From: Tubiluchus corallicola
Lineage: Eukaryota > Priapulida > Priapulimorpha > Priapulimorphida > Tubiluchidae
Direction: 5' to 3'
DNA: 64,000 nucleotides
Assembly: GCA_030141605.1 (NCBI GenBank)
Contig: JAQGDQ010000041.1
Coordinates: 248,001-312,000 of the forward strand
In this document: piece after piece, positions 210-37,600 of the stretch
Position numbering within the stretch: position 1 is the stretch's first letter
How the letters are laid out: each line of letters starts with the position of its first letter
Notes under the pieces: model-generated
Database searches by the model: none
Told to the model about the DNA's origin: nothing
Seen by the model: the letters and a program-made list of their open reading frames with translations, nothing else
Program-made: the position numbers and the translations under genes

Positions 210-3200
210 CTGTTGTTTTAGGTGGTTAACTTCTGCATCAAGAGATTTTTCATTTGGTAACTCATTTATTACATCTATAGATCGAATGGCGCACCTTAAC
301 CTGAAACAATTAACTTTATGGAACAAAAAACCTCAATTACAGTATGCTGAAAAACTTGAATTTTGCAAAAAAGAAAATCAAGATCAATTTCAATATACAA
401 CATGCACAAAGTTCATGCAACACTCTAGTAATGGAAAAGATGGCACTGACCTATCAGAATATCAGGAACTAATTTCCAGTTACGAACATTTTCAAAAAAA
501 AATCAATCTATTGCAGGTGTGTTTTCTTCAAAAATAGCTAGTGGTAATTTGTATTACAAATGGAACACTGTAGGTATAGAGATATGCTGTTGGGAAGCCT
601 CAAATCCGTGATGACAGCATTCAGAACTCGCAGTGCCATTCAATTGTTAGTGTCATGAGATTAACAACAATACAAATAAATCAGCCGATTTTTTTTTACT
701 TTCACTTGCCTGTGCTCATGTATCAAAGATTTATCTGTTGACTTCCATGCTTCTGTAAGGTCTTCGGAAGAGGAGACATTCTCATTTACAGTCATGGACA
801 TCACCAGAAACTTGTCCTTTGAAACATTTGATTTCCCTGTGAAATTAAAGGAACATCTAGCTTAAGAGAGAAAATGGCAAAATGCAGATAACTTAAAAAA
901 TAGTTACTGGATTATTCCACTTTAATCTTATTGTACTATTTTAACAGAAGCCATTATTTAGCTTTCTAAGCTGTCACTGTGTTTCACTCTGTGTTGCTCA
1001 TGCATGGAGATGATCCACTGTCCTGTTACCTATTGTACAACAATATAAGTTACACATATTGCACCACCACGACCAAGACTACAATCGTCGTCATCATCAT
1101 CCTCATCCTCATTATCGGTCTCATAATCAATACCATTACCACTTTACAAATATAAACTCTACCGCGACCTCTGCTTAAGCATGTACAAGTACTCGTACTA
1201 AGCCCCTATGTATGAGCTACCTTAGTGAAAGATGTATGATGCCTTTGCACCTCTACCACCTAACTGCCTAACTGATAATTACCATTATTAGAAAATAATT
1301 ATCACCAGTCATTCATTGTCGTCATCATTATTGTTGTTGTCATCACCACTATCATTATCGCCATCATTTCATCAACATCTCCATGCAATGAATGCTAAAC
1401 GCTTTTTAGTCATTAATATTTTACAGTTTACATTCTTCACTGTTGTTCTTAATACTAGTCGATACTTTTTAATAGAACTTTTAATTAACGTCTCTTGAAG
1501 CTAATTTATCAGATTGGTTTACCTGCTTGAAGGAAAACATTTATATCAACAGAATTGCCTGGATCCAACCGTCCTGAACTCGGCCTAACTTTGTACTTCT
1601 GAGGAGAAGTTGTCTTCACCTAGAAAAATTCAACAATGTAGATGCAATACAATGCAGATGCAATACAATGTAGATGCAATACAATGCAGATGCAATACAA
1701 TGCAGATGCAATACAATGCAGAATGTACAATGCAGATGCACAGTAAAGCTATGTGAATGACTTCCCATTCATGCCCTAGTGAGAGGAATTCTTGTAGTTG
1801 GTTTAGGGCGCACACCTCTAACAAGGCTGATACCACACAATAAATCAGGCAAATGGCTTTTGAAATGTAAAAGCTTTATTTTAGGTAAGAAAATTCATAA
1901 TAACTTATCTATTGGATCTCAAACACTAGAAAAGATTACCTTGAATGCTAAAAATTTGTTTGTGATGTTAACTAGGTTTATCACTTGTTGTGACTCCTTC
2001 TTGGAATCTGGTAAAAATTCCAGTTCAATTCCTGGACTAGAACAAACAAAAATAAATAAATTTTCCTTAACCACGGTATCCAAAAGATAAGTATAGTGAA
2101 GGAAAATAATATCAGTTTATAGAAAAAAGTCAAAATAATACCAGTTTATAGAAAAAAGTCAAAGTACAGGAAAATATATTATATACCGCTTTAGGAAAAC
2201 TCAGAAAGTTTTATAACTTATAAATGTTATTGACTATAACTGAAACAAACAGAAAAAACGGAAAAAATATGTGCTAATTGTTTTACTATTTTGCATATCT
2301 AACATTATGCAGCAATTTCATTTTGGATTTTCCATGTCAATAGTGTCAAAATGCAAACTGCACTGTACTGTAGTCGATGTAATATTTCGACTTAATGGAA
2401 AATATTAAAATAAACTACAATAAGAAAATGTTAATGTTTATGTTTCTTTCAAAACAACATATCACAAAAGTCTTCCATGATGTGTCACAAACAATATTCT
2501 TGCAAAATTAGTGTCACTATGTATAAGAATATAATTCAACTTGTAAAGCGATGTCACAAACGAATGCACTTTATAAATATCTGTAAACAAATAATGATTT
2601 AAATTGGTAAACATGTTTAACCTGATGGTAATTAGTGAACCTGTGTAAATGCTTTTGTCACTGGTCGTCTCTCCTCTCCGTAGGCCTGATGATGGACAGT
2701 CGCTATAGGGGCGCATTATCTAAAAAAACATTCACGATATAAAACATTATAAAATATAGCAAAATTCAGAAGTTTAGTTAAAAGCATTGTTTAGGTATGC
2801 ATACCATGGTAAGTTAAATTAAAAACAAAAAAGTGTTGCACCCTTGTTTCCTCAAACAAAAAATCCTTCATATTAAGTGGATTATATAACTGGCATAGTT
2901 TTATAGTTACTGGAAAAAATTACAAAAGCAAGACTAAAAAAGATAATGCAAATGCAGAATTGAGAATGCACAAGTTATTTAAGATAAAATGTAAGGCAAA
3001 AACACATCTTAAATAGCTTCTGCTTCAAAATTAATTTTTTACTTGCATGTTGCTACGTTTGCTTATGCTGTTTACATCGACTGTTACTGTCCTTTCATTA
3101 CCTGCTTAACACAAATATTACAAACTACATGATTACCAAGTCATTGTTGAATGGAGCATCATACTCATCAGCAGGAGATGGAACATCATTTTGTTCGACT

Positions 3201-6200: not shown

Positions 6201-9200
6201 ACTCTGCTTCATATCACAAAAACACAATGCATTAGTTTTATCATGCATTGCACATGCACTATGCAGAAGTACCACGTTGCACAGCACCTCATCTCCGGTC
6301 AGAAACAATTTTTTGCATACAAGTAGCGAGATGGTCAGTTACAGTATTAAAAAAGATAGAGAAACATGAGACTAAACATTATGTAACTAGCACCAATTAA
6401 ATTGCGAAACTTTGCATCTGTTCAATTCACCTTAACAAAGTTCAAAAGAGTAAATGACTAAATAAAACTAGGAAATTAAAATAGTTTTATGCAAAACAAC
6501 AAGCACATTTCTTTTTTTTGGAATAAACTTTCTGATAGGCAAAATCTGATCACTCATACCACTAATTCGCTCCAAGGCATGAAGAATTAGAAAACAGTGT
6601 GACCAATTAGACAACACTACGATACAACAAATAAACATTGTTGAGCATGTCACTATTAAAATACTTCAAAATGATCTTTATAGAGGATTGATCGAATTTA
6701 AAACAACTCTGTTAATGAGTACTTCAGACAACTTCTTAGTAAAACACTGCATGCCACCAACTAAGTTGTCCAACAACAACTATTTCTGCAGCAAAATTAT
6801 TCATTCAACTTTATGAATTAAACGCATATTAAGTATGCCATTATACATATTATATTAAACTCAGCTGGAGTTTATAAGACAATATTACAATTGTCGCGTG
6901 TTGTACTGCAATTTTATATTTTTACTAAGATATAAATAATATTAATGTAAATAAATATTGCAAATAATTCTTATAATGACCATAAAAGAAAAAATTAAAT
7001 TTAATAGAAAACCTCTCCTACAAGCACAGAACACAAAGAAAACTAAAATCTGATCACAACAAAATTATAGGCAACTACAAAACTAAATCAAAAGAAAGAC
7101 TTCAACTTATCTTGAATTAAAATCATTGCAATTATTTACACAACAAGCAGGTGTCCCAGGATTTATATACAGGAATGCATTTGTTCAAGAACTGGCTTCA
7201 TTTTCACGTAGCTCCATTACTGTGAAAAAAACAGTTTATGACTGGTGAGGAAATTGGAAAAGTTCAATTTGACAAATCTATATAATTGCACTGCATCAAA
7301 AAGTGTGAAGCTAAAATGGCATTTAGATGTAAAACAGGCACATTTAATTTTAAGAAATCATATAAAGTGTTTCATGGTAACAAATGTTTTATTTGAATCT
7401 GATCAGTACTAGGTATGCATAGAAAGGCATAAAAACACAGCAAAGGCATAGGAATGGCACCGTAACACCAGCACAAACCACCACCACCACCACTACCTCT
7501 ACCACGATTTATCACAGCAGATTTGGACATCACAAATTAAAAACTTAGCTTATATTCGGATAATGGCAAGCATGCAAAACCTTGATGCAACTATTTCATC
7601 TGTCAAATGAAACATCACATTACTCGGATGCTAACTAAGTTAAAGAGAATTGAACAGATATTTGAACAAATCAAACTCTAGTATCCCTGAAGCTTTGCTA
7701 AGCCTAAAAAACTTTTCATCTGTTCAAATTAAAAAAGAAGAATGCTTGTATCAAGACATGCATGCATCACACATGCAAGCAGTAAGTAAGTATGTCACCA
7801 AGCTGCCTAACATTCAAACAGACAATCTGATACACGTATATGCAACATACCTTTTTCTTCTCTTCTCCTGGGTTTGCTTTGCCTTTTGGCCCCTCATGTA
7901 CGAATGTGAATGTGTCCTGTGAAGAATTAGATTTTTAACATTACAGCATGAAAGAAACCCTAGTAAGGTTTCACTACAGTATTTTCACTATTTTGAGTAA
8001 TATTGGAATTATTTTAAAAATGTGTCACTGTTAGATACCACTGAAACATTGTTGAGATTTACCTGTTAATTAATAATAAAGCATAAATACTCCACTTAGT
8101 ACCACGTTGATACACAACGCTATCCAAAAGGCCCAAACTAGCATCTACAAGTTTTCGTTAAGAAACTACAAGAAGGCAGAGCCTAATTACACCATTTCTG
8201 TTCGGCTGTGGAAGACCCAGGACATCTCACCAAATGAAACAGGGAGGGGTGTTGTCGAATATTAGCTCATTGTTCGAGTCCAAGTCCAAGTCTTTCAGCA
8301 CTTTAAAGGAAAGACATAGCTTGCAAAGCCGCAGACCGCACATGGATTCATAAGTGCGTGCGTTGAGTTGCAGCTTGAAAGAAAAGCAACCGGCTAGGTG
8401 TAGGTAAAAATAATAGGTATTATATTCAAGGCTTCAAGGCAAGTAGAAAAAAATTAAAATGCAAGAATATCCATAAAACCCATAAAATGTTTAATTTATA
8501 TAAAATAAACCTTATTGATTTTTGCTACTGCAGTGCATCTAAATGCTTTTACATTATTTCCTATGGAAAATCTGGTTATGTTAAGAACAGGCTTGCCAAA
8601 TTTCAGCTTAACCATAACTAAAAAAATTTTTCATGCATCATATGTCTGCCTTGTAACAGACGTGTGCACCAATGACATCCAAATAATGTCTCTCAAAAAA
8701 TTCGTGCTCAATTTGTCTAAATATGATACAACACAAAAAACACTAACCGTGCCACCCATATGAGCTGGCAGATTGTCCTTTTCAACGTAGCTGTCCAAAT
8801 CAGGAATACCAACAAATCTGATCCGGGCCACGGCTTTTGGACTCAACCAGGACTTGACTATCTTCCAAGCGGCTAGATAAGAAAGAAAAATACTATATAA
8901 AATAAATTTTATTTAACCATAAATAATGAAAAACTAACTGTAGGCAAACAAAAAATAATTTTGAGACAGTAGAAATTGAAACTACCTACTGTAAGAAATT
9001 ATTCACACTTTAACGATCAGATATTATTCTTATGTGTGTGGCAACAAAGAACCAAGTGTGTCATGAACATTTACATGACACAAATGTAAGAACAGAAACC
9101 TCTTGCACTAAAATCATGCAAAGTTATAAACACTCGCTTTCAAAAGGAGAAAAGGAAGCCAAATAAGTCGCTACACACAATACGCCAGCCAGCCGAGTCA

Positions 9201-12200
9201 GAACACTGGCAAATTTTTAACAGACTGGTTCCGGCTAGCTAAGTTCAGGTTGGATTTGCCAGTAGGAATCTAGTTGATCTGTCTGAGCATAACTGCTGCT
9301 GAATTATCAAAAGAGGACCAGTTTGATTTTGTACATAAACTTGTACATGTTTATCCCACGAAAAATAAAACAAAAACTGACAATAAATAAGTGATTCAGC
9401 CTAGATGTTTCTACAAAAACTTGAGAAAAAATTTATTATTGTGTTAAACATCAGCATTAAGCTATGCCTCACATAAGTCACATTCAGAGGCAAAAAAATC
9501 CAACAAAAGTACCAGGGACTAAAAGTTGGCGTCCCGGTGATGGACCAAGCCCAGAGATTTTTATAGAAGTATGTAGTATCGAGATAGTTGCTGTGAAAGG
9601 GGGTTTGCAGCAAAGGGCCAAGAAACCCCATGCAGATTTGAAAAGTTAATGTCAACCTAATTAGAATTTTCACCACTTACACGTATTTCCATCGCTAATG
9701 CAGTTGCTACCTTTAAATATTATTTCAGTTGTTGTTATAAACTCACTAATAGTATTAATTAGTAGTTTATATACCCACCAAAAACAATTGGAGTTGAGTG
9801 ATTCAAAACTTGCTTAGCAAGATAATTTTGCCTTACTTAAATACTATTCCACAAAATTTCTTAGAATTATATTAAGAAAGGAACCCTTTATTTTGTTTGG
9901 CTCACAGATTCTATCACTGTGCTAGGACACAACTTCAAACAACAATTCTGCAAAATATATCACGCATCCAGTCACCACTTCTTATGTCTGATGTTGTTTA
10001 AATACTGAAGGAAGATCTTTTGAGTGTCAAAAAAGTAATTAAGCAGTGAAGTTTTTAAGACATCAACACGTGACTTGTATTGGTTGGTGACTAGGTGGCA
10101 AGACCAGCTGCTACAGTGACTATAATAGTATAATTTGAAGCCAACCTCAACTCAATGAGTCAGCTAGGAACACTTGTTATGAAGTGAATTTTAATACTGC
10201 CGATTGGTGAGGCTTGGAAGGTTAAATGCGCTTCTGCAAAAAGGAAGCCATAGAAAGATGTAGAATGAACACTTTCTGGAAGTTGACCATAAAGACGACC
10301 GAATACCAACAAACTTTCTATTAAAACACACTATAATGTGTAAAAAACGTCTATCAAAATTAAAAAGAAAAGATCTCTTCCATACTTCAACAAATGTGCA
10401 AGGATTTTAGAACAATGTGACATTTAACAAGTGTCAGACATCAATAAACATGCCAAAAATAAAAATTTGTGAATTCTGCTTGAACAATTTAAAAAATAAA
10501 GCCTTTTAAGTGTACAATAATAACAGGTTAAGCCTTTAACTCTATTTCCCATATTAACTCCTTTAATTCCATTAACTATATTTCCTGTAACATAAAAAGC
10601 TGTGACTTGCATAAAATAATTAAAATTACTCAGGTAAACAACAACTTTAGACTGAACAGGAATAAATAAATAGAAAAAGTGGTAAGGGAAACATATATTT
10701 TTGTCATACCTTGTAGTATCCATGGAAGCTCAAAGACTAATAGATATGCTAAAAAGAAAAAAATGCTATTGAACAAATTATTAATCAGCACGTACAGTGA
10801 AGCTATTACAAATTTTGAAAAACTACCTGTTAGAACTAAATAAGCAAAAACATAAATTTAATATAGCTGGCTAAATAGTACAAGAAATTCCACTTAAAAG
10901 TTTTAATTAATTTCACACGATACAACAAAATTATTGTGAAAATTTTAACAAAAGAATTTGGTAGACACAGCCGTTATTATGAGAGTTAAATGCAAACAAA
11001 GTACTGGTGAAAGTATTTATTAACCTTGACTATACATACAGCACAGCCATATTTTACTGAAAGAGACCGGCTAATCCCAAAGTAGGTAAGACCTAGCAAT
11101 AAATCATATGTCACAGATATGCCCCAGCTTTTAACAGCCTGCTACTTATTGGTATGGCAAACATTTAAAGAGAAGTTTTGATTCAAGCTAATCGCAGTGC
11201 TTGTATAAAATGCCAGTAAAGCAAAGTAAATCTCAGCAACTTAAAGCAAAGTTAAAAATTTATCGACAAAAGTGTCAAAAATTTGCTAACGTAAAAACAA
11301 ATTGTCCTCAAACAGGGAGTCACAAAGCTATAATTTACTGTACTCAACTTAAAAGAAAAATGTTTATGCATCATGGTTACTTACGTTCATTATGCATTAC
11401 ATTAAAAGTTATGATTACTACACACTTCAATAAGTTACAGAATTACTGTTAAAGAAATTTTATTAATTTCTTTAATTTTTCTTCAAAAAAATGACTATTT
11501 TCTTCAAAAAAATGACTACACTAAAATAAAATCATGCACTTATGAACAGACTAACATTGTTTGCAAGAATGTCAGTGTTCGTGGGCCAGGTAATTACACC
11601 TGGCAAGCTGGTAGTTAATTACCTGTACATTGCAAAAGCAAATACACAAGCAATCAAATTAAAAAGGTTAAAATGTAAAACCTGTAAAACAAAAAACACA
11701 ATTTTGGAAAGAAAGTTAAAAAAGAAAAAAGTTGTAAGAGTAATAAAAGATTTAAAAGAAAACAAAAAAAATTACTTACAGCATGCACATGAAATTCATG
11801 CTTAAATAACATAATTTTGTGTTACCTAGTATATTAGGGAAGTAGGATTGGAAGCAATAGATCATAAAGTTAATGGTTTCCAAGTCCTAAAAAGTAAGTC
11901 CATGATTAAAATCACAAATTACATTACAAAAAATGATCTGTAACTAAAAGAAAAAATTACCTAGTATATTAGGATAGTAGGTTTTGAAACAAGTAACGAT
12001 GAAAAAAATTGTATCCATGTCCTAGATAAAGAGAATGATGAGAAGATTATTACAAACTTCTTCATGTAGCACTTACAATCAGCAGTTAATTAATTTATTA
12101 TATATTAAAAGAAATTGACAAAAATGAACGATGTGTTTACTCAAAGCAGAAAGACTGAAAGAACAATATTCCATTCAAAACAAATTTTCATTATTCTAAT

Positions 12201-15200
12201 GTTTATAAAGGAAAGAGCACCCATTGCTGTATGACACAACAACATTATTATGTTATGAAACACACAGATTTACAAATGACACATGTTTACATGAAAACTT
12301 TCCTCATAATAAAACTTTTTTCATTAAAAAATGTAAACAAACAAACACGGCAGAGTGATAATGTCTGGATAATGAAAAAATTTTGTATAACAAGAAAGCA
12401 CAAGAAAACCCTTTACATACATAAAGCTAAAAAATGAATCTTGAAATTTTATATCTACTACATACTGTCTTATCACACACAGAGCTTGTATTAGCAGCAA
12501 GGCTGTATCAAGCTACATAAATTTAAACTCCCGCAATGACAGTTAGGCTCAGCCATTTTGACAGTAGGTCACTTGGCACAAATTTAGATAATGTTGAGTA
12601 ATGTTTGAATAAAATAACTAGAATATTTGCTAACTAAGCAAAAGTATAAATGACTTTATCTTATCAATAAGATTAAAAATACGTTTTCTGGTGAGCCAGT
12701 GGTGCACACTGGGAAGGTGATAAGTGATGTTTTACCAGGTGGTGCAAAAATTTTAAATTTCTAAGAATTTTCTTTTCTAGTTACACAAGTTCTTTCAAAA
12801 GGGTAAACATAATGACAAGTAATGAAACTTTGTGAAGAAAGGGTTTTTTGTGACACATCTTAAAACTGCCTTTTCTTCCCGGGTTAAACATTCTATTTGC
12901 ATTTGAAATGTGTGTTCAAACCGGAGAATTCCCTCAACAAGTAACTCGCATGTTCAGACTAGACAGCAAAACTTCCTGCAAGTTACTCTTCCTGAGTAAG
13001 TGCGAGCTGATACTCCCATTTTTTATTCCCTAAGAGAAGTGCAGAGAGTAACTCGCTGAAGCATTCACACTAGAAAGTAGCTCGCAGTAAATCAACTCGC
13101 AGCAACTGTCAGAGAATTTGCAATAAGTTATCGATAGTAACTCACATAATAGTTCACACTTGGGAGTTTGCTGTCAGAGAAAAAACTCACGACAGAAAAC
13201 TCGCCAATCAGAACACACCACAAAAGTTCACATTACTAAATTACCAGGAACAAATACCTCGAAGTTGTGGTACTTAAAATACAATTTTGAAATTAGATAC
13301 CAAGGTCCAATTTACCTGATTAATTATGTTATTACATGCAGAAAAAGCAACAGGAAACAAACCAAAATCAACTAAAATTCCTGATTTCCAAAAGGTCTTT
13401 TTTGTTTGACAACAAATATTGCTGGCATAACAATTAAAAGAAGAGAAGAAGCAATTATATATTATTTATTTCATACTCTTAAATTATTGTATATAAGACA
13501 CGTGGAAAGTCAACTAAAAAGTTGATTATCTTTTTGGAAATAAAAGATGGTTGAACCTCCTAACAGACTCATGTTGCTTGTTAGATAATTAAATTAGATA
13601 ACTAGACAAAAATTAAATCGAGAAAGTTGAAAATGTGTTAGCATCCAAAAAATTAGTCAAGAAACTATGATGCCACATTTACCACATTCATCAGTCCTGA
13701 TCCTGCCATGTCAAAAACAACAGCTATTTGCTCCCCTGGGTGAGCCATAAAATGTTGTTCGAAATGCCAAGCTATATACAGCCTCTGTTCCTTAGACAAG
13801 GCACTATCTTTCTTATGCAACTTGCCTTTAAACCACACTGCAACAAAAAATCCGAGCACTTTTACCAACATTTCGAAACCGGCGTTAACATCGGAAGCAT
13901 TTTATGGCACGAGCAGTAAGTATAGTATCATTAACAATCTTCCGTGCCAATTTCTTAATGAAAGCTGCTACAGAAAGGAGTAAACTATGGCACGCTGTTT
14001 GTCTAGAATCCCTGGAAATTACAAAACCACCTGCATACAAGAGGATTTTAAATGAATCAGTAAAAACAGCAATAATTTTCAAAACAAATTCAGATAGGTC
14101 AATAGTCACCCATATCAAACCTATAGGTAGGGACGTATGCAGGACAATCACTTAAGTAATGCCAATTAAATTTGAGATTTCACATGGATAAAACAATGTA
14201 TTTGCTACCTTTATGTACAGAACAGTATAAAAACAACCAATTCACATTTAACCATCTGTTTCATTACACAAATTATAAGATGGTATGCATTAAGTTAATG
14301 TAGCAAATTGCAGTTTCCACCATTATGTCCAGAGGCAATAAGCCAGTGAAGCTTTTATTTTAACAAACTGATATATATTAAATCAAAAGCAAACTTCAGT
14401 TCACATTCCTATTGCAGATTTACACACCCATTGATAATTAAACAGACAGACACAATGAACATTACTTACACAAAGGCCTGTTCAACTTATCTGTTCCATG
14501 ATAAAACAAAGAAGCACGGTCGTTGAAAGTTTGCAGTAAATCTTCGGCTTTTATATCTAATGAAAGTATATCTTAAGTTATTAACAACTAATACTTCAAA
14601 GGATGAAGCAACAGCAAATAAGCATTAATTTTCAAAATATTTCTTTATTATTATTACTATTATTATTACATTTCCAACTTAAACTAAACGTCAGTTGTCG
14701 CTATATTAAAATAACAAACAAATGCTGTGTTACATTAACTCCATTGGCCAAACTACATAATTAATAAAAAATGTTTATTTACTACAACATGTGAATTCAT
14801 GGAATTAGTGCCAGAAATTTGCCTCAGCAAAATTCTTTCTCAGCCCAGAAAGCGAGAGAATCTTTCTACAATGCAATATAGTATAACATCATTATAGTGA
14901 ACCTGCTAGAGATCCAGAAAAAAAGTACTCTATAACCGAGGTACTCTATAAGTATATGCAGCTGTATATCATATGCATATGACTACTAGATGGATGAGTA
15001 TGTAAAGTATTTTCAGAAGATGCCAACAAGTATCAACTGTTTTACAGTATATTGAGATTCAGTAAAATGTATTTTATGTCTCTTCAATAAACTACATATA
15101 AACAAGATTTAATATTAAATTGCATGTGCGTGTATCCTGTGGTACATGTTTCGTCGTAAATTTATGTGACATGTTCAATAAAGTCTATGAGACACAAAAA

Positions 15201-17597
15201 AGTCAATAAATTTTGTTTGCAAAAAATTTCTATTTGCTTCTTATACAAAACTTTTTGCAGCGAAGTAACTACAGTAAGGTTCATCACTTGAAACATCTCG
15301 GCAGTGTGCTGCCAGACAGCTGGGTGTCAAGCCATTGAGTGACTCATGGTTTTTATTTGCTAGTAGGCAAAATGATCTTTCATTACGGCATGTTAACAAC
15401 TCCGGACGTTGCATGCCCAACAACTTTTTTGCAGCACTAGGAATGCATTTAGCAGCAGAATTAATTTAGAAATTGCTAGTAAAGGTGAAGTACGCAATGA
15501 AAACTTGCAAGTACATAGCATGGCAATGGGGCAATAGAAGGTCTGCAATATACAGTAGCCGAGCACGCTGTATTCAAAGCTATTACACTAGTTAAATAAA
15601 TGACAAAGGTTCGTTCTTTTTTATCAGTTTGCATTGAAGCTCTGTATGCAATAACCTATGTTCATCATAATGGTGTTATACTGTAATCAAACATTGGAAC
15701 AGTTCTCACGAGGATTTGCATCATGTCTGCTATTGCTAAATTTACCAACAAGGCTGGCTTTTCAAATTTTACTGAAGTTTTCCTGTCTGTTCAGTCGATG
15801 TCACGTATGACTGCTAGTTTAATTGTACATTTTATTGGTCAAATGCGACTTGATAGTTCCTGGCATAAGATATATCAATCAATAAAACAAATGAACTCAT
15901 GAAGTCCATGTAATGGACAGACAATATGTCTATTTTGTGCAAGTACTAATGATTCCACTAAACTGCTCATGGTCATCAAGTCAACACTTATTATATTCTT
16001 AATCAGAAAGACTAAACCTTGAGCGATTTGTATTTCTGGTGCAAAAAAGTTAATACAGTGTTTGCAGTTTTTACTGTTTGAGTAATATAATTAGATATAT
16101 ACATATATCTATATGTATACATATCTTTTTAATTCATACGGCAAACGTGCCTAAAAAATGCTCTTGCAGCTGTTTTATTCCTCCCACTCATTTAGCATAA
16201 AAAAGATCACCTCTAATTCCTGTTTCCTTTCTCCAAGCTAATGACTCATGTGCGCAGTCTACAGACATTCCCATATGATTATATCGAGCTTTGAGAAACA
16301 AACTGACGTAGAGGTCATCAGTGCGCAAGCGTTCTAAATCTCGGTCATCATAAACACCTTTCTCTACTTCATCTGTAATGCATTTCTGTCATTATATACT
16401 CGTGTAGTCTGTATACATTAATAAGTAATGCAGTTTTGCTCTAAAGTCTGAAGCATGTGAAAGTGTTTTTTATGTGTACTAAAATTTATTTCCAAAAATG
16501 AGAATATAAGAACTAATTTATACAGTTTAAACACTTTGTACATCTTTACTAACAAATACTAAAGAGTTACAGTTAGAAATGCACTACTAATGAATGCATT
16601 AGTTAGCACCTACAGTTAAAGAAATTTCTTTCTAAGTACGATCACACACACACAAAGAAGTTAATGTGAGTTATTAAGTTTAAATCAAGAAAAACCCACC
16701 CTTTTTCCGCTCAAAGAATTGTTCTCTAAATACCTCAATATTTTCTGGAGGTACCTAAAAAGGGAAAATGTAACAACAAACAGTAATACCAATATTGTGT
16801 GAAACAAATTAGGATTTCAGTTGCTATGCTGTTCCACTTCTTTATGTGTACAGGTTTGACACATCTAAAGCTGTTTAATGTCAGATAAACGAATAAAAAC
16901 ATTTCGCTAATATATTGCGCGAAAATCGCCAACATTAACATTTTGATGAGACATATAGACTTACTTTAATCCTGGATAATACAAGACTAGCAATAGAAAG
17001 CAGTTTAATTGCTATGGCTGTTGATGAGAAATAGTGACATCACGATAAAAAGACAGGAGGCAATCTCTCATACAGATACAAATACAGATCATTTTTATCA
17101 CATAGCTATGCAAAAATCATTCTGCAAGCCAGTATTCCAGCAACCTACGAGATGGCTCGTTCATTATAGTGACAGCCATGGTAAGATCAGAATCTACCTC
17201 AACATATAGGACCACTCTCTACAATGATAAAGTGAAACAACAGAGATGTTTTAGCCACCTACAGATATTACGGCAAGAACAGTGGTACAGTAGATGAATC
17301 TCCCAAAAGTAGTTCTTTCTACTGCCACTCATTCATTTACTAAAGATGTCAAAAATTACTGAACTTCACTGCTCACATGTGACCACTCAGCTCATTAGCC
17401 TTAGGCATTAGAATAAGAAAAATAGCAGCACCTTTCAAAGATTTTTTTGTCAGATTTCTCACTTCAGTGTTTATTATCTACTTACAAAAAAACAGAACAC
17501 CAGATGCATATTATAAATTATTTCTTAAGTTTTAAAAAAGTTACATAAAATTTAATTAAACTATACATACTGTGGGATTTTCGACACTATCTGCCAT
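210..17597 (-). CDS. MOSPD2: MOSPD2-like protein (CRAL-TRIO + MSP), 3' end beyond window
   Basis: Tethers the endoplasmic reticulum to other organelles in the known family. Coding exons in transcription order: 17597-17571, 16754-16700, 16372-16211, 14556-14470, 13837-13683, then 12021-11961 or 11886-11826, 10748-10710, 8872-8748, 7916-7851, 3217-3137, 2719-2622, 2036-1940, 1619-1523, 836-710, 300-210. Phases agree throughout and give 456 codons. Residues 28-81 hold the CRAL-TRIO N-terminal helices (DRDLERLRTDD, LAWRKE). Residues 82-237 are the CRAL-TRIO lipid-binding fold (VVFDMAGSGL, FELPW, LPAHMGGT). Residues 238-314 are an acidic and basic linker. About 315-425 is an MSP/VAP domain (ELEFLP, VNITNKFLAFKVKTTSP.KYKVRPSSG, DPGNSVDI, KDKFLVMSM, EHRLRC). 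Residues 426-456 look helical. Human MOSPD2 is 518 residues and ends in a membrane anchor; that part would lie left of base 1. The start ATG is in a good context (AAATGG), directly after a possible acceptor, so a 5' noncoding exon is likely. Confidence 0.9.
1080..1380. repeat. TCA/TCG-rich simple sequence
   Basis: Irregular runs of CATCAT, CCTCAT, TCGTCG and ATTATT triplets fill part of the 686-nt intron between the exons at 1523 and 836. I see no coding signal here. Confidence 0.6.
1634..1744. repeat. 16-bp tandem repeat in MOSPD2-like intron
   Basis: About six copies of a unit resembling GATGCAATACAATGCA lie in the short intron between the two central MSP exons (2036-1940 and 1619-1523). 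The last copy is irregular. It is simple minisatellite DNA. Confidence 0.9.
2103..2162. repeat. 28-bp direct duplication
   Basis: Two near-identical copies of a unit ending in AGTTTATAGAAAAAAGTC lie side by side in the intron upstream of the exon 2036-1940. Confidence 0.85.
3218..7850. other. Large MOSPD2-like intron (4.6 kb)
   Basis: This stretch separates the linker exons 7916-7851 and 3217-3137. I found no exon continuing the reading frame and no recognisable transposon. It is AT-rich with short homopolymer runs. A divergent linker exon could be missed here, because the linker is poorly conserved in the family. Confidence 0.6.
11477..11519. repeat. 21-bp direct duplication
   Basis: Two adjacent copies of TTTTCTTCAAAAAAATGACT lie in the intron between exon 6b and the exon at 10748. 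Confidence 0.85.
11826..11886 (-). CDS. MOSPD2: MOSPD2-like alternative exon 6b (duplicate of 6a)
   Basis: This second 61-nt exon has the same phases as 6a, with acceptor TTTTTAG and donor GTAACA. It encodes DLETINFMI, then YCFQSYFPNIL, which matches 6a at 11 of 20 residues. The last 14 bases before the donor are identical in the two copies. The intervening intron is 74 nt. No stop or splice defect is visible, so both copies look functional. Confidence 0.82.
11961..12021 (-). CDS. MOSPD2: MOSPD2-like alternative exon 6a (CRAL-TRIO segment)
   Basis: This 61-nt exon starts in phase 0 after acceptor TATCTAG and ends in phase 1 before donor GTAATT. It encodes 20 residues reading DMDTIFFIV, then TCFKTYYPNIL, and aligns with the human segment around CFKVYYPKYL. 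It is the copy closer to human MOSPD2. It splices in frame from the exon ending at 13683 to the exon starting at 10748. Joining it to exon 6b as well would shift the frame. Confidence 0.85.
12628..12840. repeat. Dispersed repeat, copy A
   Basis: About 210 bp here match 34024-34240 in the same orientation. Shared blocks include GGTGAGCCAG.GGTGCACA, a TTGGTGCAAA-type block, and CTAAGAATTTTCTTTTC. Divergence is substantial, so this is an old interspersed repeat of unknown class in the intron before exon 6a. Confidence 0.75.
12941..13210. repeat. Irregular GTAACTCGC-rich repeat tract
   Basis: The words AACTCGC, AGCTCGC or AACTCAC recur at least six times at uneven spacing, mixed with TTCACACT and TGTCAGAG. 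It looks like a decayed tandem repeat or transposon interior in the intron upstream of exon 6a. Confidence 0.55.
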
Positions 17598-23755: not shown

Positions 23756-26700
23756 TCAGATAGCTGGTATAATTATATAAGGTTGGTGCGGCAAGAATCT
23801 GCCTTTCTCAGAGCAGTCGAAAATCCACTTTGGCTTGACAAACTGTAGACTTGAGTTTTCTGATAATGCCTGTTAATAAAAATATTAATGAATATAGTGA
23901 TGGTTTTATAATAATTACAATAGTTTTTGTCTTTGTTGATTAGTAATGAATTCATAACAATTTTTGTGAAGTAGTGAAATTGCAGAACTCACATCATCAA
24001 AGTTCTTATCCCATTCAGAACTCGTTACAACGTAAGACACGGCTGCATTCATATAGTCATCTACTGCCCTGCAAAAATATAAAAAAATTGTATATTTTAA
24101 GCAGCAGTATTCTAATATCAAATCAGTATGATGACGAATAAAGATAAACTGAATAAAATACACTTATGTATAACACAGCAACAACCATTTTTATATAATA
24201 TCACAGTTTTGCAAAAAATAAATTCTATTGTACAGTCATCCGAAACAGCCAAACTATAGAACTAATCAAAAATGGTGTCTTACACCTGTACAATGGCTAC
24301 AATTATAAAATGTAAAAAAGAAGAACATACACACCCGTTAAAGGCAACTATGTGACGCACGATTTGGCGTCTCTGCTCAGAGGTAAAATCACCATACAGG
24401 AAAAAGTGTTTACCTAAAAGAACAGCAAAACGAAATTATATAATACATTATTATATCGGGAACAAGCAGGTGCCAAATACCGGCGGGGGTGTTTGGAACA
24501 CATCCTCACCCTTCAGTTACTCGTGGATTACACACTGTGCCAAAAGAAAAAGCTTTTTGCAATCTACGTCGACTTTAGCAAAGCGTATGACAGAGTACCT
24601 CGTGGTGCTATTTTTACTACCTTGGCAGCTTTAGGATGTGGATATGCCATGATAGCGGCTATTTGTACCTTATATTCAGATAAGCAGATGATTTTAGGAA
24701 CGGCTACAATTATAGCAACTATTGGTCTTCGTCAGGGAAGCCCGACATCGTGTTTTCTTTTTACCTTGTACCTAAATCCGTTTGTGAGGCGAATTAAACA
24801 CGTGTGTGGAAAAACGTACAAAAAAGTTTGTTTCGAAGTTGGTAAGCCAGTGTCACGCTATGACAGATGACCCGTTTATGTTGGTATGGAATTTATATAA
24901 AGATCACGAACAAAGGGATACAAATATTTAGACAGTGTTATGTCTACAACGGATCATGCACAGACTGATGTAGAGAGACGAAAGACTCATGTCCGAGTTT
25001 CTGATCGTACAAAATGCAAGACTTATTTGGAAATAAATCCCAACTTGTCTATGCATTCAATGTATGGAAACACAGAATTACCTGAGCACAAACGTATAAT
25101 CATCACAAGAAGGGTCTCATCACACAATCTAGCTACAGAAACAGGTCGTTGGGAAAATGTACCTCATGAGCGCAGGCTGTGTCTTTGTGGAGAAATGCAG
25201 ACAGAAGAGCATTTTTTGTGCGAGTGCCATGAAAATGCACTTTATAGATCACTGTATGCGTTAAATTATAGTAATATTGCAAATTTATTTGATGGAGAAT
25301 TAATGTCAATTGGAAATTTCATTTACAACTGCTTGCATAGATCTTTGAATTAAATAGTATGGTTTCGTTAGCGGACATATAACCGCATCACTGTGATTAT
25401 CATATAGGTAAAATATTTGTTTATCACATGTGTACAAATGCTTAGTTAATAGTTTTTTGCTTCATAGAGTTTACACCTTGTGCAGCTATGTTGGGTCAAA
25501 TCGTTAGCATGATCTGGGAATCATTACCCGAGCTCTGCCCGCTGATAAAACCATCGGGTATGCGTCGGTTTTGTAATCTTCGTGTTGGAAATTTGATTTT
25601 CAGCAATAAAATATCTATCTATCTATCTATTGGCCCATTTTGCATTTGTCCGATTAGATACAATTTTTTGTCACAGTCGACATGAAAGATACATGCAAAT
25701 GAGTTTTTCCACATACACAAGTTAATTACATTTATGTCTTTAACTTGTCACACATGCTGATGTGTCACATTCGATATAACATGAAATTACACAGAAATTT
25801 GCATTGTTACTGTTTTCGGAAATTTTTTTTTTCAAAATTTTGTTGTTTTGTTTCCCGTCAAGTTTCTAATGCCACATGTATAAGGTTGCAATTCCACTGT
25901 GTCTGCACAGACATGCACATACCAATGTTTGCAAATTCTCGGCCCTCTTAAAATTACATGACCAAGATCTGGACCGAGACTGACTTATAGAGATCCCGCC
26001 AAGGTCAAAACTGATAATCACCTTATAAACACCGTGGCTGACTTACAGGAACTGATCTAAAATAGCAGAGCCTTGCATGCAACATTATACATTACAACAG
26101 ACACTAATTGAATATAAGGGAGTGGAAAAATAGAAAATTAGGAAACTATACACTGATGAACTGAATTTTCTGACAAACATAATGACAAATATTGCAATAC
26201 GATACATCCAGCTATCTCTATGATACAAAGCAATGACAAGAATGCACAACAAATAGTCCACACTAGACAATATTACAGCTCTGGAATTTGACATCATACA
26301 AAAACATTGTCCTGTGCTTTAGTTTTCACAAAATTAGAGCAGCGTTTTTGCCACAGGTAACTTTGCAATCGGCATACATGTACATTCTACCAGTCCTGCT
26401 AGCAAATTAGTAGCAGCAGGCACAGGATTTGTTGATTTATGGAGTCTATTGCTCAGGCATCTAACACAATGAAGCTTCAAACTATGTATAAATGGTATAT
26501 GTAGTCAATGCAGCCTTTACTTGTGGTGGAATGTGTACAATGTTAGAACTGTTTATCAGTGTTATCATCACCACAGTTGTCTCATTCCTCGCTGAGATCG
26601 AATAGCAAGATGAAGACTTTTAAAAAACTACAATCTCAGTGGGATCAAGAACGGTACTAGTCGAACTGCAAACACTGACACATCGTCAGACTTGTCTGCC

Positions 26701-31631: not shown

Positions 31632-34600
31632 AACATATGCGTGAATGTTGCATTAATAAAACGTAAAGTCGCCAGTCTGGTAAAAGAGAAATTAAATCTT
31701 AGAATTTTATGCTGAAATGTGTTAATTGTTGTTTCATTAAATAAGAAATAAGTAACTGAATAGTTAAATTTAAAACTTAATTCAGCGAGGATTCTTCATG
31801 AAAATTGAACATGGCTTGCGGCAAAATTCCTCATGAGGAGGATGCATAGAAGTCTTCTAGCTGGTGGCAGAATACCTCATGAAACACTGCACGAGAAAAT
31901 TTGCCACACTATCTCACCGTGAAATGCGTCATAGAAAACAATGTGTTTCATTTTCATGAGGAATGCCGCAAGGAGTTTCTCCTCGAGGCATTTTGCTGCA
32001 AGTCCTCTCTGTGAAATGGACCTTAGAAATCTAAAAATGATAAACAATGTATGTTAGTAATCACCAGTGCCAAAAGTTTCAACAAATCTTGCAACTATTC
32101 AGTCAGTCTATTCAGATGAAAAGTCTCATCACACTGAGACATTTTCAATTTGAAATGTATCCCATGTCCGAGATATTAGATTATTCTTAGCAAAGTTTGA
32201 ATAACTGAGCAACCCAGTTGAACCAAAGTAGAATCATTCTCAGTGTCAAGAGATAGTTTACACATAATCAGTTTTACACAGCATGTCTGTACATACATGA
32301 TACTAATACTTGTCATTAGCCACATTCACTTTATTTCTTGTAAATGATTTTATAAATTCAAACCACACTAATACATAGTGCATAATTACATACACCAAAT
32401 GAGTACATTCTTTTGTCCAATCTGGTCGATATTTTGCACCCATTTCCAGTGCTTTTTCTCGAAGTTGTCCACGGAGCGGATTCTGAAAACCGCTGAGAGA
32501 GAAGAATACTCCTTTCATGATTGAGTTGAAATCTACTGGAGTCTGAGAACTTGAATTGCCCAACGTATGGACAGCTATGACAAACAGAAAAAAAACATTA
32601 AATATTTTGTTCCAATAATTTTAGTAGTAAGCACAGGATTATTGTTAGATGACACATGCTGTTACCATATCCTTTTGAAATGAAGACGATCTGAATTCAA
32701 ATCGGATTGGGAAAAAGTTTAAAGCTTTCTCACTTATTTTGCCCACATGTAGAATTTGAAGATTTCACTTGCATTATTATAACCTGTTTAAGCATGAATT
32801 GCATTTTACATTGACAGACAGCTAGCATTTTGTACAATAAATTTATGAACCACAGAATCTGAAGCTCCTCTGTGACCTGAATAGAATGCAAATCAAATTT
32901 AAAATTTTTATTTGTCTCTCTCAATAGGTTGCAAAGTGTATGAAATTAAAATCAGTAAATTACATTGACAAGATATAGATGGGGCGGTGAAGGACCAGGG
33001 GTCATTGAGCAGCCACCCCTATATAAATATGTTATTTTAGATATCATGGCTTTTTTTAATTTAATGATACCAATAGGTTATGTCAATTATTTGTGCTACT
33101 ATATGCTGTGAATTTAATATTGTCTAAGGAGACAATTAAATTTGTGCAAATAAGATTAATTAATTCACAGATATTTTGAAGTTTATGGTGAGCAAAATAC
33201 AGCAACATAATATAATTATTAGAAATACAGTTGCGTAAAATGCAGTAAATGTTTGGGTTCAAGTCCCACAGAACGATAACAGTTTTTTGGGGATTCTAAT
33301 TTAGTTTAGTTACATGCAGTCATAAACTTAACAGATTGGTAGCCAAATATGCAAAAAGAATTTAGCACAAAGTTGGAACTCCGTGAAATGACAAATCCAT
33401 AAATGAACATCCTACGTAGTGTTTGTTTACTATTCTCGTAGGCTGACGGTAAGTATTTAAGCCGCTTCTAAGCAAAGATTATAAGCACAGTGTATAATGG
33501 ATCATGCCAGTAGCAATGAAAAATTGCAGGAAAGAAGTTGAAACTATCCGTTTAAGAGTTCCATGGTAGACGTAGGTCGTATAACAGAGTCAACACAGAT
33601 TGTAGCCCAATTCAACGTCTATACAAGGAGCTATAAAACTCCCCCAAGACATGTACAAACGGCCATAATAACAGTTTTTGCAGATACTGTTTATTCAGAA
33701 TTGTAGGGTGAGTGGGTCTAGAAAATTGCATACTGCAGGCAGACAAGAGCCTAAACATGTTTATTACACCTTTTTTGAGCTGAATGCTCTTTTTAATACT
33801 ACATAGCACCACATCTATTGCAGTCCACCCATTTTTCATATCTTAGTTTTATGTTTTATGAAAAGCGGCCAAAAACTGCCATTTTTGGAGTTTTTCCGTC
33901 CGCCATTACTCCCAAACATTCAGAATGGGTAAACTGGCTTCCTATGTCCACACTCTTTAAAGGTGACTCTAGCATCATTTAAGCATCATTTAAGCAACAT
34001 TTTATTATAGTCATGCAGTCGTTTGGTTGCTAATTAAGCTAACGTATAACTTACTTTACATTTTCAATAAGTTCAATAATGTGTTTTTGGTGAGCCAGAG
34101 GTGCACATTTAGATAGTGATACAGTGACGTCTTACGACTTGGTGCAAACATTTTAAAATTACTAAGAATTTTCTTTTCCAATTACATACGTCTTTCAAAC
34201 ATTAAGCATAATCCTAAGCAATAGAACCTTGTATATAAAATTCATTTGATACAGTTTAAAATTCCATTTTCTTCCTTTTTAGTAGTACACATTTTTTAAC
34301 ATTTTTTTCCAAACCTGTCCAAACAGCTACAAAACCTTTACGCTTTACACATTCCCAAAGAGGCTAATCACAAGCACATGCACAGGATGGGGCAGATGTG
34401 GAACTATGCTGATGATACATCTATCTCTGTTTCAGGCAAAACTGGTCTTGAACTCGAAACTAAACTCCAAATTTGAGCCAACAGCATAGCACAGTGGTCT
34501 CGTGACAATGACATGGTAATAAATAAAGAGAAAACAAAAACAGCGGTACTAAGTGCCCATCAGAGACTAGCCTGTCTTACTGATGATTTAAATATTATCA

Positions 34601-37600
34601 TTGAGGGATACTCAATTAGTAACAGCCAGCAAGAAAAAGTGTTAGAGTTAATTATAGGAATAATTATACACAACACTTTATCCTGGGAAGCTCAAGTTTC
34701 TGAAATACAAAGAACGGCTTTGGCAAGTTTAACGACCCTTCGAAGACTAAGACAATATCTTCCCTGGAGAACAAAATACTATATTGATAACAGTCATGTT
34801 CAGCCACACCTTGAGTATTGCTGCAGTATCTGAGGCAATTTTGACCAACAAACATTACTGAGAGCCTTCAGGATCCAAAAATGAGGCACGCGGCTCATAT
34901 TCAACTGAAGCACAGAAACGCCCACCAGCGATTTGCTTGCCACACTTAACTGGCTTCCTTTAGCTGACAGAATTAAATATGACAAAGGTTTGATGACGTA
35001 TAAAATTTTGAATGATCATGCACCCGATTACCTGAGACAAACATTTACATGTTTCAGACATGCACAGCAAGGTCACATGAGCAGTTGAGTGCCAAATTCT
35101 ACTTACCAAAACCAAAAATAGAAATTTACAAATGCACTTTATTTTCTAGAGCTCAGCTGTTGGAACTCTTTACCACTAGAAGTGGCTGATACCAATAGCA
35201 TCAATGCTTTTAAGTCATGATTTAAAAATGCTTGTTAGAAACACTGTAGCCTGTAAGCTAATATAAACATGTTTTCTTTTTGTCTCTTACAGCAGATGTT
35301 TTACTAAAGTGTACTGATTGTGTATATCTTTGTTTATATTGTGTATAAAGTGCATATTTTGTTTTTGTACAATTTCTAAGTCAGATTATATGTCTCAGTA
35401 TTTTTAGTGCTTGCAGTTGTCAATATTTCCATAATGCTTTTTGTCTTGTTTTATTTTGGGGACCACTTCAGAAATAACTAATAGTTTTGTAATTGTTGGT
35501 TAAAGTGTTATCCATGTTAAATAAAGAATTAATAATAATCCTCAAGCAATTATCCACAGTATATTAGAATTGTTATGCATTTCTTTCACAATTCTTCGCA
35601 GACTTTTGTCAGTTGAGAAACTGCTGTTTCTAAATTTAAGGCAAAAGGATTAGTCTCTTGTGAAGAACTAATACAGTAATTTATCAAATCCACTGAATCT
35701 ACAAAAACGAGATAACAAAATGCTCTCTTTTGAGCGAGTGTGTTGGACCACAAAAATCAGCTGAATTACAGTTTATAGCTATTGGTCTGATTCATCTAAC
35801 TAACTGACCAAGTAAACTGCTTAGCAAAGAAACATCCAAAATGACTCGTGCTGCACATACATTTCTGCTTTTTTGTCGGCGGAGGTGTTGCTTCCCTCAC
35901 TGTTGCTTTTCTCTTTGCTTCCTTAGATTTTACTTGATCCTCCTTGGTATTTGGTGCCGTTTTCTTAGCTGATTCTCTGACAAGTTCATGTTTTGATTCT
36001 GCAGTAGGTTTTGCAGTTAATGGTGTCTACAAAAAATAAACAGTTTTATTCGTTTAAACATATTTCATTCGTTTTGATATTTTTACAGTGCAACACAGAA
36101 GTTTTTAATTTTCACCTTAAAACAGCAGTAACAGTTGAAGTGGGCTAATCTAATATTTAATGCAATCTGTTAAATTATGTTTTACAGTAACATAAAGTAA
36201 TGTTAAATTACAAGTAAAAACAGACAAATCTCAGCAATGTTAAGGAAAGATACAAATTAAAATATAATAGAGTTACCTCGGTAATACACTTGCAACAGGC
36301 AACATGCTTTTGCAAGGAAATCTAAGCATATTAGCTAACATTTCAAAGTAAAACTCTCCATCTTCAGGGAGAAGCTGTCAAAACAATCCAAATAACAATA
36401 ACACCTAATAAGGCATTTTTGCCGTTTTTATGGTACCCCGAAAATGGAGTGAGTTTTACTCCACAACATCGACTAATGTATTAATTTTTCTAGAGAGCTT
36501 ACCTGCTTTGCAGCTCCTGCAACCACGGGTGTTGGCTGCTTCATAACTGAAGTGTCTCGAGAAGCTGCTCTAACAGCTGCAGCTCCTGAAAAAGAAATAC
36601 TACCAGTTGTAAAATATGAGACATGTATTGTTTAAAACATATAAATAAATGTTGTATAAATGAAGTCTTATAACTTATATCTCAACTTGTAATGAAGTGT
36701 AACAAATGATCTAATTTAGCTTACTGTCTAAGCAAAGCCAACTGCATCTCGACAGAATTTATAAACTAGATGTTTTCCTAAATACAGAATACGTATAATT
36801 CTACACATCGAGAACATTCAGTCATACTGACAGCTTTAGAATTAAATTGAATAAGTATAACAGAAGGTATCTTCTAAAGGGTAAGCATAATTATTAACAA
36901 TATTATCACTTATGTTGTAATTCAGTGCTTACATTTACAGAAGAAACAATTATTACTAGGATGCAATGCCGTTGATTCAAATGTACTTAATTGCATATTT
37001 AATTCACTCAATAGATTTCACTTCATTGTTCTAGGAACTAATGGCCTTGCCACAGTTTCAAAGGTGACAGCATTTCAATTATGGTTTTTAAACTTGCTCA
37101 AATTAACTCTGATATCCATAGAATTTTATTATTCCCATAAACATTTATTTCTTTAATGGGCTGATAAATGACTGAAACAAGTAGCATTTTTCATGACATC
37201 AGTATAAGTTGCCAGTAAAAACTTATGCAATCCTCTAATAGGACTTGACTTTTCTACCTTTGACTTCCTCTTCTTTATGCGCATGTCTGGTTGCAAACAA
37301 AGATCCTACTTTCAGCGTTGACTCATCTGATTCTGGTTTCAACGTGAATGAACCTATTCGCTCAACTTTCTGCAAATGCAATTATTTATTTATGATCAAA
37401 TATACGATAGTATTATATGATATTGCTGTTATTTGACATCTAGCATAAATTTATCTAATAGGTTAACTTAAAAAACCTTAATGTCTGCAATGCAGATATA
37501 TTGGCAAAGCTCAGGTTTAGACGAGTTTATAACAAGTTAGCAGGCAATAAATTTTGAAGTCAAATAATTAACAAAAGATGCAACAACTATCGTTTTAGTA

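Follow-up and report, generated by a model that had tools for sequence, protein, structure and literature searches.

A MOSPD2-type gene on the minus strand of the window (the whole stretch of 64,000 nucleotides of DNA that was analyzed) carries two neighboring homologous exons, here called A and B, which are very probably a real mutually exclusive pair and not one exon beside a decaying copy, because they give the domain the same Pfam score, lie in unrelated flanks, differ by conservative changes, and break the reading frame with an early stop unless a single one is used. The gene would thus probably be able to make two versions of its lipid-binding CRAL-TRIO domain. Our preferred reading, to which we assign a probability of roughly 0.8, is that the pair works as an A-or-B helix switch that would mainly tune contact with the gate helix, a membrane, or a partner. 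The original prediction had read the two as tandem, mutually exclusive exons of a MOSPD2 homologue, and splice sites, frame, and Pfam matches bear this out as far as sequence reaches.

The gene and its tandem exons

The predicted protein has a CRAL-TRIO domain followed by an MSP domain, which is the MOSPD2 arrangement; the tail-anchor end of the gene would fall before window base 1. The CRAL_TRIO Pfam score is 107.5 bits with exon A, 107.5 with exon B, and 71.5 without the segment (cut-off, 22.6), and the downstream exons score 86.2 bits for Motile_Sperm (MSP) (cut-off, 25.9). Identity to human MOSPD2, in what we take to be its sequence, is 34% over 209 amino acids. The exons below cover 16372-8748 and 2036-210 of the window, with the boundaries of the last four (2036-1940, 1619-1523, 836-710, and 300-210) placed by eye.

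16211..16372, minus strand: exon N-terminal to the CRAL-TRIO core
14470..14556, minus strand: CRAL-TRIO exon, DIKAEDLLQTFNDRASLFYHGTDKLNRPL
13683..13837, minus strand: constitutive exon upstream of the A/B pair, ending in phase 0
11961..12021, minus strand: exon A, 61 nt, phase 0 in and 1 out, DMDTIFFIVTCFKTYYPNIL; acceptor tcatcattctctttatctag, donor gtaatt
11887..11960, minus strand: intron between A and B, 74 nt
11826..11886, minus strand: exon B, 61 nt, phase 0 in and 1 out, DLETINFMIYCFQSYFPNIL; acceptor atcatggacttactttttag, donor gtaaca
10710..10748, minus strand: constitutive exon downstream of the pair, 39 nt, entered in phase 1, AYLLVFELPWILQ
8748..8872, minus strand: next CRAL-TRIO exon, with the remaining gate-helix region (AAWKIVKSWL...HMGGT)
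1940..2036, minus strand: MSP domain exon
1523..1619, minus strand: MSP domain exon, KTTSPQKYKVRPSSG
710..836, minus strand: MSP domain exon with an apparent GC donor (AG/gcaagt, 710-708), giving a GC-AG intron
210..300, minus strand: exon beyond the MSP domain

Exons A and B agree in phase. Of their 61 nucleotides 44 are identical, and of the 20 encoded amino acids 11, which leaves nine residues of one short segment that differ, by conservative changes. Recomputation returned exactly the coordinates, the lengths of 61 and 61 nt, the 74-nt intron, the phases, and the 11/20 identity of the original prediction, as well as the upstream exon end at 13683 and the downstream exon start at 10748. Each exon had also been credited with its own acceptor and donor, and AG and GT are indeed present on both. 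The further claim that both exons or neither would break the frame is confirmed by translation: double inclusion reads ...NIL-GLGNH-stop and skipping of both reads ...MNV-HIY-stop, in either case within six codons. A productive transcript therefore needs exactly one of the two.

The pair stands apart from its surroundings. In a six-frame scan of the 64 kb, A against B has a BLOSUM62 score of 72 over 20 residues, and the next best match for either scores 42 and includes a stop; this candidate for a third exon copy, at 44669-44610, was rejected on its score and its stop. A self-comparison of 343 kb of the genome returned A/B as the only isolated exon pair at that score, the other pairs appearing, by inspection, to be DNA satellites or internal protein repeats. 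Reverse-transcriptase-like open frames were seen elsewhere in the window, at 24418-25353 and 34477-34833 on the plus strand. On another contig (C400, 205395-212705) there are four MSP-domain matches, two of them within one 1,301-residue frame, together with 288-nt (96-residue) repeats.

The helix of the proposed switch

The CRAL-TRIO domain aligns over its whole length to Sec14/CRAL-TRIO structures, the best being yeast CSR1 (7wvt; E value, 1e-20). The switched segment matches residues 172-191 of alpha-TTP (1oip), through a common (Y/F)P, and residues 191-209 of Sec14p (1aua) plus the preceding one. By homology to these two proteins, the helix of the segment would line the lipid cavity, as had originally been proposed. 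Sec14p Glu207, which falls on segment position 18, is presumably part of the inositol-lipid site. The homologous alpha-TTP helix supplies Ile179, Val182, Leu183, and Phe187, which are among the largest lipid contacts of that protein (PMC3496730), and one of these, Ile179, contributes to telling stereoisomers apart (PMC5654212); Ser201 and Met209 of Sec14p are among the pocket residues that have been compared with the human protein (PMC5147771). The correspondences are as follows.

Position 8 (alpha-TTP Ile179): I in A, M in B
Position 11 (alpha-TTP Val182): C in both
Position 12 (alpha-TTP Leu183, Sec14p Ser201): F in both
Position 16 (alpha-TTP Phe187): Y in A, F in B
Position 18 (alpha-TTP Leu189, Sec14p Glu207): N in both
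Position 20 (alpha-TTP Val191, Sec14p Met209): L in both

Only two of the six mapped pocket positions thus differ between the exons (I8M and Y16F). The changed positions 2, 3, 6, 9, 10, 13, and 14 share one side of the helix, about 120 to 140 degrees from its hydrophobic face, and a helix-moment test over positions 1-15 gives p values of 0.009 (changed versus unchanged) and 0.004 (dissimilarity), with 0.01 to 0.04 over other ranges. The larger changes (F/N, T/Y, and K/Q) gather on the face opposite the pocket, and T/S and D/E also point outward, as assigned by mapping onto alpha-TTP and Sec14p. Such outward changes agree with the general rule for homologous exon pairs, which keep the fold and vary conservatively, often at surface-exposed residues close to functional sites (PMC7954323). 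The two exons that come next encode the gate helix, which follows the segment. Its region is, we assume, also the site of the amphipathic helix with which human MOSPD2 binds lipid droplets. A review places the amphipathic helix of MOSPD2 in the CRAL-TRIO domain (PMC11484260).

Based on this mapping, the two isoform domains would differ in one helix and in the turn that leads to the following beta strand, with the fold and most pocket residues kept and with one outward helix face and two pocket residues changed. In our view the switch would most likely adjust the outside of the domain, or the part of its surface beside the gate, and thereby its contact with a membrane, a partner, or the gate helix itself; we rank a modest effect on the bound lipid second. 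The principal alternative, which is compatible with a real exon pair, gives the lipid first place and holds that the switch mainly alters which lipid the CRAL-TRIO domain holds. We regard it as possible but doubtful: the alpha-TTP contacts described above, the part of Ile179 in stereoisomer discrimination, and the changes at pocket positions 8 and 16 speak for it, but positions 11, 12, 18, and 20 are the same in A and B and the larger substitutions point to the opposite face. The suggestion in the original prediction of a difference in lipid choice between the isoforms is therefore weakly supported.

MOSPD2 connects the ER with other organelles and with lipid droplets, and its lipid transfer activity has been termed putative (PMC11484260). 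It is a tentative thought that the gene encodes a contact-site tether in which alternative splicing of one CRAL-TRIO helix changes either the lipid carried or the organelle targeted, making this a splice-controlled lipid-transfer domain. The ligand of the MOSPD2 CRAL-TRIO domain is unsettled, and two natural versions of the domain are a ready-made experiment, as any property that differs between them would reveal the purpose of the helix.

Probable maintenance and choice of the two exons

The identity of A and B is limited to the exon and the adjoining GTAA, and the 60-nt flanks are no more alike than shuffled sequences (p = 0.37 and 0.56). As the flanks retain no similarity, the copy must be old and the exons kept. 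Between the exons, 11 of 49 nonsynonymous sites and 6 of 11 synonymous sites differ (one-sided Fisher p = 0.043; NG86 dN 0.27 and dS 0.95), a codon pattern that is weak evidence alone, given how few the sites are. Random substitution from A with the same number of changes produced a stop-free, equally conservative copy in 0.085% of 20,000 simulations. Taken together, intact splice sites, equal Pfam scores, diverged flanks, and the codon pattern point to two maintained exons. The last 13 exon bases and the first four intron bases (CCTAATATACTAG followed by GTAA; 11822-11838 and 11957-11973, minus strand) are the same in A and B and so more alike than the remaining exon; this stretch is possibly a common splicing signal or a trace of gene conversion.

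It is very improbable that B is an old copy, unused or decaying, with A alone being spliced. The acceptor of B is poorer in pyrimidines than that of A (10/15 versus 13/15), and human MOSPD2, in the sequence that we take it to have, is closer to A (12/20) than to B (7/20). This comparison, which we treat as a lead, makes B probably the derived copy. Yet the frame of B is open, its splice sites are intact, and it matches Pfam as well as A does; its changes are conservative, with nonsynonymous differences proportionally fewer than synonymous ones, and this in a copy whose flanks have lost any remaining similarity.

We infer that an internal exon of a single-locus MOSPD2-type gene was duplicated in tandem and retained as a mutually exclusive pair, from which each mRNA would take A or B. 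Through the early stops described above, the reading frame itself would impose the choice of a single exon, and NMD would remove mRNAs with both exons or neither. The very short intron between the exons would make splicing of A to B unlikely and so probably aids exclusivity. At 74 nt, it falls below all 130 lengths (smallest, about 95; median, about 686) estimated, from the coordinates of adjacent exon hits, for introns in myosin, kinesin, and TCP-1 (PF00118) genes of the same genome. The comparison gives support and not proof, because a hit may contain a very short intron that escapes notice; one of the 130, checked in the DNA, is close to 100 nt. A candidate branch point (TTAAT) in the A-B intron has its A at nucleotide 55 from the donor and 19 nt before the acceptor. 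In a human study, a branch point less than 50 nt from the donor was the mark of steric exclusion (PMC5740500), by which rule the case here is borderline. RNA pairing between the introns around A and B, as in Dscam-like docking, was not above that of shuffles, and the donors of both exons are ordinary, with no clear sign of regulation.

The stops also admit a different use of the pair, as mainly an on/off switch in which early-stop mRNAs are destroyed and MOSPD2 is lowered in some cells. That both unproductive products stop within so few codons fits this idea, which we nevertheless consider very improbable, as a poison exon needs no conserved, in-frame, domain-compatible protein sequence and B has one. 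An assembly artefact, with two haplotypes placed in tandem, is extremely unlikely: redundant sequence exists in the assembly, with 3,138 identical bases common to five contigs, but the exons differ by 28%, their flanks are unrelated, and a query of 401 bases around them matches one place only (assembly of 343.5 Mb in 2,344 contigs).

Several features of the genome were noted alongside. In the five contigs (C45, C2048, C2100, C2197, and C2212), the 3,138 bases are 100% identical and contain a CRAL_TRIO-like fragment with a single stop; either the contigs would be redundant or the sequence a repeat of very recent origin. Myosin matches of equal score on opposite strands of C917, near 20757 and 92822, would likewise be a large inverted duplication or an assembly palindrome. 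TCP-1/cpn60 genes on C1761, C846, C1597, C1531, and C2335 and kinesin genes on C349, C1556, C530, and C2263 are single uninterrupted frames, and their relatives in the same genome carry many introns, which suggests that many intronless retrocopies exist among these families. No spliced processed copies of the MOSPD2-type mRNA were found in the genome, and the GTDB and viral contigs scanned contained no relative.

Comparison with known systems

The exon arrangement itself belongs to a known class. Homologous mutually exclusive exons form 629 clusters in human (PMC5740500), where they are also cataloged elsewhere (PMC9741552), and Kassiopeia covers Drosophila, Caenorhabditis elegans, and Arabidopsis, with predicted pairs in 127 to 206 genes per species across twelve Drosophila species (PMC3923563). 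Like the cataloged pairs, A and B are neighboring and homologous, agree in length and phase, differ by conservative changes, are separated by a short intron, and have a length not divisible by three, which blocks joint inclusion. They differ from them in the gene concerned, MOSPD2, and in being predicted here from genome sequence. In the text of the papers searched, we found no mutually exclusive pair in MOSPD2 or in any CRAL-TRIO/Sec14 gene; this agrees with the original prediction, which knew of no exon switch described in this gene in vertebrates, and within the same bounds its occurrence in MOSPD2 has no earlier report. Nor is a gene-level exon switch reported there for CSR1, Sec14p, or alpha-TTP, the structural relatives of the domain. 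With vertebrate MOSPD2, an ER tether built of CRAL-TRIO, MSP, and tail anchor, the gene has its domain order in common, and to that plan it adds a second copy of a 20-residue exon.
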